A stretch of DNA of 64,000 bases. Origin: Methanosarcina acetivorans C2A. GTDB taxonomy: Archaea > Halobacteriota > Methanosarcinia > Methanosarcinales > Methanosarcinaceae. Below are positions 46,886 to 57,021 of this stretch, in pieces. The notes beneath the pieces were generated by a model, which was not told the origin of the DNA, did not search any database, and saw only the letters and a program-made list of their open reading frames with translations. Both the position numbers and the translations under genes were made by a program. The number at the start of each line of letters is the position of its first letter. Within the stretch, counting starts at the first letter, position 1. Location: NCBI RefSeq assembly GCF_000007345.1, contig NC_003552.1:1302001-1366000 (forward strand), in the 5' to 3' direction.

Positions 46886-48037
46886 ATGAGTACTGGAATG
46901 AAAAACCTTGCCCGTACACTGGATAGTTTGGATTTCTTAAAACTGGACCGGCGTACTTTTATGAAGGCTGTAGGTGCTCTCGGAGCAACTGCTTTTCTTG
47001 GCACCTATAAAACAGAGATTGTAAGTGCGCTTGAGTTTGCAGAAACCAAGATTATCTGGCTTCACGGTGCTGAATGCACTGGCTGTTCTGAATCTATTTT
47101 AAATGGAGGCAATCCTGATATTATTCAGGCAATCAACAAGCTCAATGTCAACCTTGCTTATCATGAAACTCTTCTTGCCCAACAGGGGCTTTTTGTGGAC
47201 GATGAGCCTGTAAACACCTCTGAACTGAACTCCGAACTTCTCGTTGACGAACTCATCGAAGAAGGCAACTATATCCTTGTCGTTGAAGGCGCAATTGCAA
47301 ACGGGCCAGATGGCTCAGGGCGTTACTGCGTTATCGGGAACAGGACCTTCAAAGAGCTCTTTGAAAAAGCTGCAAAAAATGCCAATGCTATCCTTGCAGT
47401 CGGAACCTGTGCCACCTACGGAGGAATCACCTGTGCTGACAGTGCCATTGCCGATGTCACGGATTACAGGGGGGTGGCTTTCACAAAGGAAGACAGCTCA
47501 AAAGGCATGCTCACAGAGCTCGGGATCCACAAACCCGTAATAAATATCCCTGGTTGTCCTGCACACCCTGATTGGATTCTCCTTACCGTAGGTGCGGTAA
47601 TCCTTGGCAAGATCAAGGTTCCCGACGACCTCGATACCGTTCTTGACCAGTATGGAAGACCTATCGTCTTTTTCCCAACAGATCACACAGTACATGAAAA
47701 CTGCCCGCGCCGTGGCTACTATGACCGCGGAGAATTCGATGAGCAGATCGGTGGAGAAAAGTGCCTCTGGAAATTAGGCTGCAAAGCTCCTTATTCTCAC
47801 GCAGATTGTGCCATCCGCCGCTGGAATGGTTCCGTAAGTATGTGTACTCAGGCAGGCTCTCCCTGTATTGCCTGCGTTGAACCCGGCTTCCCTGACTCAT
47901 CGAGACCTTTCTATGTTGAAGCTGAAGACAAGGGAGTGCTGCTTGGCGCAAACATTGACACATTATCCAAAGCTGCAGTCGGGGCTGCTACCGTAGTTGC
48001 CGGGGTACACGCTGTTCGGAGAATGAAAGGAGAGTGA
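46886..48037 (+). CDS. vhtG: Membrane-bound [NiFe] hydrogenase small subunit VhtG
   Basis: About 383 residues with a Tat signal (LDRRTFMKAVGALGATAFLG, twin Arg at 22-23), so the heterodimer is exported. Mature Cys ligands for three Fe-S clusters: AECTGCSES (64-67), AVGTCATYGG, NIPGCPAHPDW, ENCPRRGYYDRG, CLWKLGCKAPYSHADC and CTQAGSPCIACV. A C-terminal hydrophobic segment may help membrane contact. A TTG at 46859 and a GTG at 46877 are also open; I prefer the ATG at 46886 (MSTGMKN). First gene of vhtGACD. Confidence 0.93.
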   Translation: MSTGMKNLARTLDSLDFLKLDRRTFMKAVGALGATAFLGTYKTEIVSALEFAETKIIWLHGAECTGCSESILNGGNPDIIQAINKLNVNLAYHETLLAQQGLFVDDEPVNTSELNSELLVDELIEEGNYILVVEGAIANGPDGSGRYCVIGNRTFKELFEKAAKNANAILAVGTCATYGGITCADSAIADVTDYRGVAFTKEDSSKGMLTELGIHKPVINIPGCPAHPDWILLTVGAVILGKIKVPDDLDTVLDQYGRPIVFFPTDHTVHENCPRRGYYDRGEFDEQIGGEKCLWKLGCKAPYSHADCAIRRWNGSVSMCTQAGSPCIACVEPGFPDSSRPFYVEAEDKGVLLGANIDTLSKAAVGAATVVAGVHAVRRMKGE

Positions 48038-52695: not shown

Positions 52696-53246
52696 ATTCC
52701 ATACCCCACTTGATATATAATTCTAGCCCCATGTATACGTAGCGCATCTTGTTTTTTTCTATATTAACTACAAATACTAAATTTAAAATTTCAATATATA
52801 TTTCAATATATAAAATAGATATTAAAATATATAAATCTTTAGAAAAACTATATTTCTTTTAACTGTAATCGGGATATCTAGATAAATTAAAAGAAAATAT
52901 AATAAGTAACAGAATAAGTAACAGGATACTGGATGGTGGTAATATCTCCAGTATATCCGGTTTAAGAGGAATTCTTTCATATTTGATATGTTTGTAAATA
53001 TTCTTTCTAATTAATATTTAATTTTCTCCAGAACTTATCCGCGTAAGAGCTGGGAGGAGCATAGTTTCCCCATCGAACCGGTGGACTAAAACCAGGTCCT
53101 TAGAAGAGGCTCTCTTAGATCTCTGAACCTTAACAGGCTATTCAAGGCTGCAATAGGCTTTTCCATAATAGTCTTTTAATACAATAGCGTCTTTGTCTTA
53201 TTATATCTCTATATAAAAAAATATTAATTATCCCGGGGGAAGCAGA
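52696..53246. promoter_or_regulatory. Spacer with promoter of second hydrogenase operon
   Basis: Very AT-rich. TATATAAA at about 53211-53218 is the nearest TATA-like box, ~35 bases before the expected start of the small subunit; GGGGGA at 53235-53240 can act as ribosome-binding site. No gene is seen. Confidence 0.45.
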
Positions 53247-54455
53247 ACGAGTGAAGAATCTTTACTTGAAAAGTTTAAAAATCTCGACTTCATGAAAATG
53301 GACCGTCGGACTTTTATAAAAGCCGTCGGGGTACTGGGAGCTTCGCTGTTTTTACAGACCTATAAAAGTGACCTGGCAAAAGCCCTCGAACTTTCGGAAA
53401 CTAAAGTATTGTGGTTCCATGGGGTAGAGTGTACCGGTTGCAGCATATCAATGCTTGACGGAGGGACACCTGATATCGTAGAACTACTCCAATATTTAAA
53501 CCTCAACCTGCTCTATCAGGAGGTCCTGATGATGCAACAGGGAATTTTCGTAGACGGAAAACCTGCAAATACCAGTGATCTGAACTCTGAGCTTCTGCTG
53601 GATGAGATTCTGGAAAACGAAAAAGACTATGTTTTCATTTCTGAAGGCGGGGTCCCGAACGGGCCTGATGGTACGGGAAAATATCTGGTACTCGGAGGCA
53701 GGACATATAAGGAAATTTATGAGAAAGCTGCAAAAAGCGCCTCGGTAATTATAGCAATCGGGCAATGTGCTACTAATAGTGGAGTAAATGCTGCGAAAAG
53801 TGATGTAAAAGAACTTCTTGACCACCGTGGAATAGCTTTTACGATGGAAGATTCTTCAAAAGGAATTATTGATCTGCTCGGGATCGACAAACCGGTTATC
53901 AACATTAACGGCTGTCCTGCCCATCCTGACTGGGTGTTTCTGACAATAAGCGCGGTTGTCCTGGGAAAAATCAAGGTACCTGATGATCTCCCTTACGTGC
54001 TGGACAGATGGAACCGTCCGAAAGTTTTCTTCCCTCCGGATCATGTTATACACGACAACTGCCCACGCCGCGGATATTATGACCGTGGGGAACTTGACCT
54101 GACAGTAGGCGGACCGAATTGCCTCTGGAAACTGGGGTGCAAAGGGCCGTATACCCATGCTGACTGTGCCACTCGCCACTGGAACGGACATCAATCTTTC
54201 TGTCCGCAGGCAGGGTCTCCTTGTATAGGCTGCGTACAGCCGGGGTTTCCGGATAGTACCAGGCCTTTTTTCGTGGAAAGTGAAGATGCTGGAATTGTCG
54301 GGACGCATCTTGATACTGTAGCAGGTGTGGCAATAGGAGGGGCACTTCTTGCTGCAGGTGCTCATGCTATAAGAAGGACTGTTTTGAAAAAACCTGTAGA
54401 TAAAGAGGAGAGTGCAGAAGAGAATATTTCCGAGAAGACCGGAGGTGAAAAGTAA
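53247..54455 (+). CDS. vhxG: Second [NiFe] hydrogenase small subunit (VhxG/VhoG type)
   Basis: From the expected N-terminus the protein would have ~402 residues and starts at ACG (53247) after GGGGGAAGCAGA: (T)SEESLLEKFKNLDFMKMDRRTF, which aligns with MSTGMKNLARTLDSLDFLKLDRRTF of VhtG. The first in-frame ATG (53292) lies only four codons before the twin Arg and has no ribosome-binding site. All Fe-S ligands are present (VECTGCSIS, NINGCPAHPDW, DNCPRRGYYDRG, CLWKLGCKGPYTHADC, CPQAGSPCIGC). The stop overlaps the vhxA ATG. The gene names follow the M. acetivorans/M. barkeri usage; in M. mazei a GAC operon without D is called vho. Confidence 0.85.
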   Translation, partial: TSEESLLEKFKNLDFMKMDRRTFIKAVGVLGASLFLQTYKSDLAKALELSETKVLWFHGVECTGCSISMLDGGTPDIVELLQYLNLNLLYQEVLMMQQGIFVDGKPANTSDLNSELLLDEILENEKDYVFISEGGVPNGPDGTGKYLVLGGRTYKEIYEKAAKSASVIIAIGQCATNSGVNAAKSDVKELLDHRGIAFTMEDSSKGIIDLLGIDKPVININGCPAHPDWVFLTISAVVLGKIKVPDDLPYVLDRWNRPKVFFPPDHVIHDNCPRRGYYDRGELDLTVGGPNCLWKLGCKGPYTHADCATRHWNGHQSFCPQAGSPCIGCVQPGFPDSTRPFFVESEDAGIVGTHLDTVAGVAIGGALLAAGAHAIRRTVLKKPVDKEESAEENISEKTGGEK

Positions 54456-56245
54456 TGGTACAGGTGACCATAGATCCTCTTTCAAGAATTGAAGGGCATT
54501 ATAGGATTAATACTGAAGTCGACGAAGATGGCGTGATTACCGATGCCCAGAGCAATGCCCTGCTCTTTAGAGGTTTTGAGAAATTTCTTTTGAATCAAGA
54601 CCCGAGAGATGCGGCACTTCTAACCCAGAGGATCTGCGGGGTCTGCCCGGTCTGCCATAGCATAGCTGCAGCAAATGCTTTGGATGAACTTTTCGGAGTT
54701 ATAGAAGAGGTTCCCAAAGATGCTCTTGTAATGAGAAATATTCATCAGGGTTTTAATTTCATAGCCAGTCACGCAGCTCACATCTATATACTCTGGGGCC
54801 CGGACCTCGCAAATCCGGCTTATCATAATATCCTTATGCAATACGGAGAAATGGGAAATGCGGTGTGGGGAGAATTGGCCGGACGTTTTATGCCTATAGT
54901 AAATCAGTTTAACGGAATACGTTATCCTGCCGGATCTTCTTACCTCGGTGCTATCAGGGAACAGCGTCACATGCATGATGCCATTTCTCTTGTTGCAGGC
55001 AAAATGCCTCATTCCGTTTTACAGCATGTAGGAGGAGTGGTTTATTCCCCGACTATTGCAGATATTAATGAGCTTGTAGCCTATGTTGAAAAAACTGCGG
55101 AGTTCGTTGAAGCATTTACTCTCGGGGTCTCTCCCGACACCTGGATTGAAAATACTTACAAAGCTTCTTCTCCGCAAAAAGCTGTCAATTTCGTCCTGGA
55201 ACGCCTGCAGGAACTTCTGGATAATTCCCTTGTCAGCAATGACTTCTCCCACTCCTCCGGCTGGGGAGATGTTCCTCTTTTTGCGGCTTTTGGCTCGGAA
55301 CTGGTCGGAGAACAGCTTCTCGGGCTGCCTATCAGTATGAAAATGGACCGGGCAGGAGTTTATCCTGATCCTGACAAAATCGGTTTTCTTTCTTACGGAG
55401 TTTTCTTCAAGCCTGAAAATGGGGACGGGTATGACCCCACAAGTCCTGCCGATGAAAGGGTTATACCTTCCGGATATATGAACGGAAATCTGGAGCTTGA
55501 AGAATTCGACTACAGAATAATCTCTGAAAGCATTACTCACTCTTTTTACATTGACGAGGAAGAAGACCGCTCTCCATGGAACGGAGTTACGGTTCCTGAA
55601 GGGGATCCTGACAAAATTGATTACACAAAAGGTTCGGAAAGTCGTTACTCCTGGGCAAAGGCCCCTAATTATGGCGGCATTCCCTGTGAAGTAGGGCCAC
55701 TTGCCCGCCTCATGATCATGGGAGAGCCCCTCACAACCGGACTGGTTCAGACTTTTCAGGAAAACGGTTACTCTCCTGTAAACAATTATACCCGCATGAT
55801 TGCAAGGATGCAGGAGGTCCTTGTAGTGATGTCCGAACTGATGAAATGGATTTTGCAGGATCTTGAGCCAGATGCAAAGGTTGCAGTGCACACCGATCTT
55901 TCGATGGCAAAGGATTCGACAGGGATGGGTCTGTGGGAAGCCCCGAGAGGGGCTCTGGGGCACTGGATTGCTACAGGTTCGGATTCGATGGTTACTCTGT
56001 ATCAGGCTGTGGTTCCGAGTACCTGGAACCTTGCTCCGAGGAACTCGCAGGGAATTCCGGGTCCTGTTGAGCAGGCCCTCATAGGCACAAAAATCTCGGC
56101 TGCGGAAAATGCCCTCGGTGTTGACTATGCAAATCCTCTCGGGATTTTACATACGGGTCGCTCCTATGACCCCTGCCTGGCCTGTGCGGTCCATACAATC
56201 GACAGAACCGGAAAGCATCCGGGGCATACTATCAGGGTGCTTTAA
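54455..56245 (+). CDS. vhxA: Second [NiFe] hydrogenase large subunit (VhxA/VhoA type)
   Basis: The 596-residue subunit keeps RICGVCPVCHS and DPCLACAVH (Cys574, Cys577, His580), so the NiFe site can form. The cleavable tail is TIDRTGKHPGHTIRVL. It is closely related to VhtA over its length, with differences mostly in surface loops (an insert with DEEEDRSPWNG near 369). ATG at 54455 follows GGAGGTGA, a strong site. There is no protease gene in this operon. Confidence 0.94.
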   Translation: MVQVTIDPLSRIEGHYRINTEVDEDGVITDAQSNALLFRGFEKFLLNQDPRDAALLTQRICGVCPVCHSIAAANALDELFGVIEEVPKDALVMRNIHQGFNFIASHAAHIYILWGPDLANPAYHNILMQYGEMGNAVWGELAGRFMPIVNQFNGIRYPAGSSYLGAIREQRHMHDAISLVAGKMPHSVLQHVGGVVYSPTIADINELVAYVEKTAEFVEAFTLGVSPDTWIENTYKASSPQKAVNFVLERLQELLDNSLVSNDFSHSSGWGDVPLFAAFGSELVGEQLLGLPISMKMDRAGVYPDPDKIGFLSYGVFFKPENGDGYDPTSPADERVIPSGYMNGNLELEEFDYRIISESITHSFYIDEEEDRSPWNGVTVPEGDPDKIDYTKGSESRYSWAKAPNYGGIPCEVGPLARLMIMGEPLTTGLVQTFQENGYSPVNNYTRMIARMQEVLVVMSELMKWILQDLEPDAKVAVHTDLSMAKDSTGMGLWEAPRGALGHWIATGSDSMVTLYQAVVPSTWNLAPRNSQGIPGPVEQALIGTKISAAENALGVDYANPLGILHTGRSYDPCLACAVHTIDRTGKHPGHTIRVL

Positions 56246-56256
56246 GGGGGATTGGT

Positions 56257-57021
56257 ATGGTACGGCATGATGAAAAACTTGCTTCCGGAAGGATGGTAGT
56301 TGAGCGCTATACCTGGCTTGAGAGGATTACTCACCTGGTTCACCTGCTTGCCATGTTTATCCTTCTGATCACGGGATTCAGGATCTACTTCGGCTGGGAT
56401 TTCATGCAATTTCAGACTGCCCGGGCGATCCATATGATTGCGGTTCCTTTTTTTCTGGCCGCGAACTGGATCCTTGTTCCCTACAATATCTTTTCCTGCA
56501 AGGGGGAAAGGTGGTGTGTCAGGTCCAGGATAGACCATTTCAGGGAAGCTTATATATTCGAGGAGGAGGATGCGGAACGCCTTTTTGACATCATCAGGAA
56601 TTTTTTCGGGAAAGGCAGATATCCTGCTTTTACGCTCTATGATGAACGGGAAGGGTATTATATTACAAAACTTCATCCCATGCTCAAGCTGCTGATTATT
56701 TTCGAAAGCACCGCAATTGTTCTTATTGCCATAACAGGAATAGTGCTTTACGATATTAACTGGGCTCCTCTCGGACTCCCTGTATCCGAATGGATCCTTT
56801 CAATAGTCTGGTATTTTGCGTCTATGTTTAACGTTAATGCTCTGGGCCTGATCCGTACGGGACATCTGCTTGCAGGCTACTGGTTTGTCTTTGAGCTTGT
56901 CGTCCACGTGGGTATTCTTGAGTTTGATCCTAAAGTATGGAAATACCACAAAGCAATCTTCTGGTCCGGAAAGGAAGATTTGTCAGATAGGAATTTTGTC
57001 AAGGTAGTGGAAGAAGATTGA
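56257..57021 (+). CDS. vhxC: Second hydrogenase cytochrome b subunit (VhxC/VhoC type)
   Basis: The 254-residue membrane protein aligns with Vht[59 protein letters not shown] and the shared [10 protein letters not shown] end. The His set for two hemes is kept. It passes electrons from the dimer to methanophenazine. A small Cys-rich variant part (SCKGERWCVRSR) near residue 90 differs from VhtC. Confidence 0.92.
   Translation: MVRHDEKLASGRMVVERYTWLERITHLVHLLAMFILLITGFRIYFGWDFMQFQTARAIHMIAVPFFLAANWILVPYNIFSCKGERWCVRSRIDHFREAYIFEEEDAERLFDIIRNFFGKGRYPAFTLYDEREGYYITKLHPMLKLLIIFESTAIVLIAITGIVLYDINWAPLGLPVSEWILSIVWYFASMFNVNALGLIRTGHLLAGYWFVFELVVHVGILEFDPKVWKYHKAIFWSGKEDLSDRNFVKVVEED

Follow-up and report, generated by a model that had tools for sequence, protein, structure and literature searches.

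The second hydrogenase operon of the window (the whole 64,000-nt stretch of Methanosarcina acetivorans DNA analysed here), vhxGAC, occupies positions 53247-57021, downstream of vhtG, and begins with a gene for the small subunit of a methanophenazine-linked [NiFe] hydrogenase. The VhxG protein matches the Pfam families NiFe_hyd_SSU_C and Oxidored_q6, and the M. acetivorans copy has both the cluster cysteines (CTGC) and the Tat motif DRRTF. The vhxA and vhxC reading frames are named by homology to VhtA and VhtC and by their order in the operon. The features discussed below, with Shine-Dalgarno abbreviated as SD, are the following.

46886..48037, + strand: vhtG, the paralogue used as a control, with an ATG start kept in 20 of the 20 relatives read
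53198..53219, + strand: A/T-rich, TATA-like stretch, a putative promoter, kept in the alignment of relatives
53235..53240, + strand: GGGGGA, the SD sequence of vhxG (duplex -8.6 kcal/mol)
53247..53249, + strand: ACG, the probable vhxG start codon, with only ACG, ATG or GTG at this position in 27 species
53247..53285, + strand: first 13 codons of vhxG, with the strongest synonymous constraint in the gene by window identity, an initiation-site signature
53247..54455, + strand: vhxG, 402 codons counted from the ACG
53292..53294, + strand: first in-frame ATG of vhxG, with no SD
53298..53300, + strand: second in-frame ATG, the conserved M of KMDRRTF in the relatives read, with no SD
53301..53315, + strand: Tat twin-arginine motif DRRTF, from the translation
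54455..56245, + strand: vhxA, large subunit
56257..57021, + strand: vhxC, cytochrome b-type subunit

According to the earlier note, GGGGGA precedes the ACG at 53247 by six bases, and the ATG at 53292 has no ribosome-binding site. Both statements are borne out by the sequence, in which the spacer reads AGCAGA, and by duplex energies calculated with an assumed archaeal anti-SD of AUCACCUCCU, which give the ACG a value of -8.6 kcal/mol and each of the two ATGs one of +0.1 kcal/mol. From the ACG the frame is open down to the stop at 54455, and it is open for 25 codons 5' of the first ATG. Folding of the mRNA gave no signal of a structure masking the start (z-score -0.46).

Alignment of this position with other Methanosarcina, which the earlier note had proposed, returned ACG in 18 of 27 species, ATG in eight and GTG in one at the codon anchored by the SD, and no other codon. 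On the vhxG tree, ATG is the codon of all four outgroup species, while the 23 species of the main clade divide into 18 with ACG, four with ATG and one with GTG. At least six changes of start codon are required on this tree, so that the codon shifts to and fro among start codons and ACG is not fixed. Among relatives, the three internal ACG codons of the gene give way to ACA, ACC, ACT or TCN but in no case to ATG. Both the SD and its spacing are conserved, with an almost invariant run of G at -12 to -9 among 21 relatives, and in-frame insertions between the ACG and the ATG occur in two species (+12 in L007 and +15 in L017).

The alternative that survives best is an internal start at the ATG at 53292 or 53298, with a shortened Tat signal and an upstream stretch that is a leftover. 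The conservation of the second ATG is in its favour, and MDRRTF would remain in the product. However, neither ATG has an SD, and the first is not conserved, being GTG, GCG or ATA in five species; relatives that start at 53292 with no conservation upstream, which the earlier note had named as evidence against its own reading, were not found. Selection on the upstream codons also stands against this alternative. For the ten codons 5' of the ATG (LLEKFKNLDF), dN/dS in the main clade is 0.05 in frame, against 1.2 and 2.0 when the other two frames are read, which shows these codons to be coding. The eight codons preceding the ACG show no constraint (dN/dS about 1.1), nor is there protein-level constraint on codons 2-5, just after it (0.9). 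Synonymous-site identity averages 0.61 over the gene (sd 0.09); it peaks at the ACG, with window values of 0.93-0.94, and drops to 0.4-0.5 around the ATGs; matching peaks are found at the vhtG ATG and at the ACG of mmp3, a gene described below. Coding constraint and initiation-site constraint both start at the ACG. Taken together, the dN/dS values, the insertions, the non-conservation of the first ATG and the synonymous constraint argue for initiation at the ACG, and we consider the internal start, which the earlier note had also offered, to be unlikely.

Less probable again is a start at some other codon near the SD. An out-of-frame GTG at 53251 opens a short ORF whose TGA overlaps the ATG at 53292, which could allow re-initiation there, and an in-frame ATGGGGGG lies upstream in a small number of relatives. 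The GTG, however, is shared by M. acetivorans and its nearest relative alone, and the coupled short ORF was dropped for this lack of conservation. As for the upstream ATG, which sits inside the SD, about five species have it in frame, and in the others it is out of frame or missing.

Initiation at ACG does not appear to be confined to vhxG, a wider pattern in the family that the earlier note had not recognised. Five further genes carry an SD-led ACG.

L191:1681-3246, - strand: mmp3, methanogenesis marker 3 (TIGR03268), ACG behind GAGGTG
L075:15684-16322, - strand: MptE-like gene (PF01973)
L074:5604-7265, - strand: gene for a ViaA-like VWA protein
L175:9132-10607, + strand: DnaK-like gene
L072:13619-17107, - strand: surface protein gene

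A broadly conserved case is mmp3, in which every one of the 30 Methanosarcina loci read has the ACG behind a good SD. Beyond the genus, another 20 starts were read (four others could not be confidently aligned at the start), and ACG stands there in 11 species from seven genus-level groups of the family (g3, g4, g6, g7, g10, g11 and g12), with CTG in g5, GTG in g8 and in another family, and ATG in g9. The Methanosarcina gene also has an in-frame GTG inside the SD, at -9, but this GTG is absent from the other genera with ACG, so that in several of them ACG is the sole candidate for the start. ACG, CTG and GTG are far commoner than ATG at this position, which suggests selection for weak initiation. 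Orthologues of the MptE-like, ViaA-like and DnaK-like genes exchange ACG with ATG, GTG, CTG or ATT. The fixed position is ACG in seven MptE-like orthologues, GTG in three, CTG in one and ATG in 18; it is ACG in ten, ATT in one and ATG in 14 of the 25 readable ViaA-like orthologues; and the DnaK-like orthologues have ACG in six cases and ATG in three. In the surface-protein family, ACG was found in three species. The spacing behind the SD is fixed across orthologues in vhxG and in the other ACG genes alike, and in vhxG and the MptE-like and ViaA-like genes the codon exchanges only with other start codons.

Several single candidates were also seen. In M. acetivorans, an 826-codon frame for a PLD/helicase-type protein has the SD GGAGTGAT followed by ACG (L181:2238, + strand). 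G006, another Methanosarcina, has a 328-codon frame with AAGGAGGGGTCGCT and ACG, a strong candidate (L317:12207-13191, - strand), and in G069, from another genus, an archaellin-like gene (RAQVGIGTLIIF; L310:11939-12839, + strand) has an apparent ACG start at TKANQRHLMHRDDRAQ. A strong SD followed by ATA, ATT or CTG at a plausible gene start, with no canonical alternative, was noted at L084:11894-12452 (- strand), L074:16151-18566 (+ strand), L082:3327-3993 (- strand), L067:15713-16367 (+ strand) and L080:15650-17471 (- strand); further non-canonical starts of these kinds may be in use. Some SD-led ACG candidates are plainly internal codons, for example those in repeated transposase-like ORFs with GGTGAATCTACCTCG before the ACG, and were set aside.

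The use of ACG by vhxG orthologues and by other genes also leads us to reject the proposal that a T-to-C change or a base-call error has damaged the vhxG start in a decaying operon, the least probable of the readings: Vhx is reported to be inactive in M. barkeri (PMC6030560) and a cluster cysteine is gone in many VhxG proteins, but the 18 species with ACG come from independent assemblies and rule out sequencing error or recent damage, broadly conserved genes begin with ACG too, and dN/dS over the whole of vhxG is about 0.15-0.18. By this last value, the VhxG protein is still under selection despite the reports of silence or inactivity. The cysteine that is lost is the first of the proximal-cluster motif, where ECTGC reads MDSGC, with Asp for Cys, in most VhxG orthologues (L005-L022); it is kept in M. 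acetivorans, L002 (GCTGC), L003, L004, L034 and the outgroup, and has no apparent link to the start codon. The vhxG of L034:5001-6020, from a draft genome (G027 C86), lacks about 48 middle residues and is still in frame.

At the level of the genome, codons lying behind an SD of -7.5 kcal/mol or stronger were counted over the opening 30 codons of each ORF and compared with ORF interiors. The scan covered 464 kb of M. acetivorans at first and was then enlarged to 1.26 Mb of the single 5,751,492-bp contig, which brought in mmp3 and the DnaK-like gene. In the enlarged sample ACG accounts for 13 of 175 such codons compared with 22 of 1559 in interiors (ratio 5.3, p 1.5e-5), the third strongest enrichment after ATG and TTG, and the 800 kb added to it after the hypothesis had been formed, an independent part, gave a ratio of 4.2 (p 0.017) when taken alone. 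The count was repeated with several thresholds and zone sizes; at the loosest setting (-6.5 kcal/mol, 60 codons, full sample) the result is weaker, with a ratio of 1.4 (p 0.14). The enrichment is absent from 400-kb samples of G006 (1/102 vs 7/386) and G069 (0/95 vs 5/251), although single convincing ACG cases nonetheless occur in both. Because of these absences and the weaker signal at the loosest thresholds, we treat the genome-level enrichment as tentative, and the orthologue alignments bear the argument. A codon-bias score used as a start finder was too noisy and was discarded. Extrapolated roughly, about seven cases in 1.26 Mb would correspond to some 30 ACG starts in the M. acetivorans genome.

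The simplest mechanism would be near-cognate initiation. The SD would set the 30S subunit over the ACG, and the ordinary initiator Met-tRNA, with its CAU anticodon, would be accepted there despite the mismatch at the second base, so that VhxG would begin with Met and keep its full Tat signal. Eukaryotes accept near-cognate start codons, and in eukaryotic initiation at ACG the codon is read by initiator Met-tRNA with machinery of the e/aIF1 and e/aIF2 type. The likeness to the archaeal case lies in these components; the difference is that here the ACG would be placed by an SD, at the start of the main product, and in eukaryotes by cap scanning. The initiator tRNA genes examined in M. acetivorans are ordinary. 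Both copies are identical, with a CAU anticodon, A1-U72 and an anticodon stem that contains three G-C pairs, and the tRNA with a CGT anticodon is a normal tRNA-Thr. No initiator with a CGU anticodon was found among the best 30 of 52 tRNA genes in a tRNA family search, and two pattern scans for one were empty, with patterns that would miss the real CAU initiator as well. A destabilising effect on non-AUG complexes has been reported for archaeal aIF1 (PMC6237735), so a low rate of initiation at ACG is to be expected. The low yield that the earlier note had attached to an ACG start is plausible, where the ACG start itself is upheld by conservation, the SD and the constraint pattern, and the codon may limit expression of the vhx operon. 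We infer in addition that mmp3, vhxG and similar genes are selected for low output.

GUG, UUG and the rare AUU and CUG starts of bacteria and archaea resemble the cases described here in being near-cognate codons led by an SD at the fixed position of an AUG, and differ in that the mismatch in ACG falls at the second base. To our knowledge, ACG is absent from the start codons of NCBI table 11. A review of archaeal initiation names AUG, GUG and UUG only (PMC7531240), and the start codons reported for unannotated small ORFs from Ribo-seq in M. mazei include ATG, TTG, GTG and CTG (PMC11456600). In the literature searched, which largely excluded subscription papers, no account of an archaeal ACG start was found; the ACG in PMC4023990 is only a Thr codon.

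Vhx and the methanophenazine-reducing Vht/Vho [NiFe] hydrogenases have paralogous small, large and cytochrome subunits, and VhxG is 61% identical to VhtG. Unlike vhxG, vhtG has a conserved ATG start, and unlike Vht/Vho, Vhx has no maturation protease gene after vhxC at the M. acetivorans locus and has been reported silent or inactive. The promoter and ribosome-binding site of M. barkeri vhxG are reported to give nearly no reporter activity (PMC11409679), which counts against the ACG reading, and vhx of that species is reported to be incapable of yielding active hydrogenase (PMC6030560), whereas M. acetivorans Vhx is said to retain the known active-site residues (PMC13224831). If ACG is the start and the silent vhx reporter fusions were built at a mis-annotated one, their silence could reflect this.

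We conclude that the ACG at 53247 is most likely the true start of vhxG, and assign a probability of about 0.88, judged from comparative sequence data, to the fuller statement that it is the natural start and that ACG is a minor, genuine and inherited start codon in the Methanosarcinaceae. With rather less assurance, but still somewhat better than even, we favour the view that ACG is a regular, selected start in a small set of genes of this family, kept for weak initiation and hence low dosage (as in the MCR-associated Mmp3), and that every one of these genes is given a wrong start by gene finders restricted to ATG, GTG and TTG. Standard gene finding ignores ACG, and if our reading is right, N-termini would be corrected across many genomes, and natural mRNAs of a methanogen open to genetic work could serve to test the fidelity of aIF1 and aIF2. 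The archaeal start repertoire would gain a second-position mismatch, and a codon off the accepted prokaryotic list would be in native use, maintained by selection throughout an archaeal family and in a gene bound to methanogenesis.
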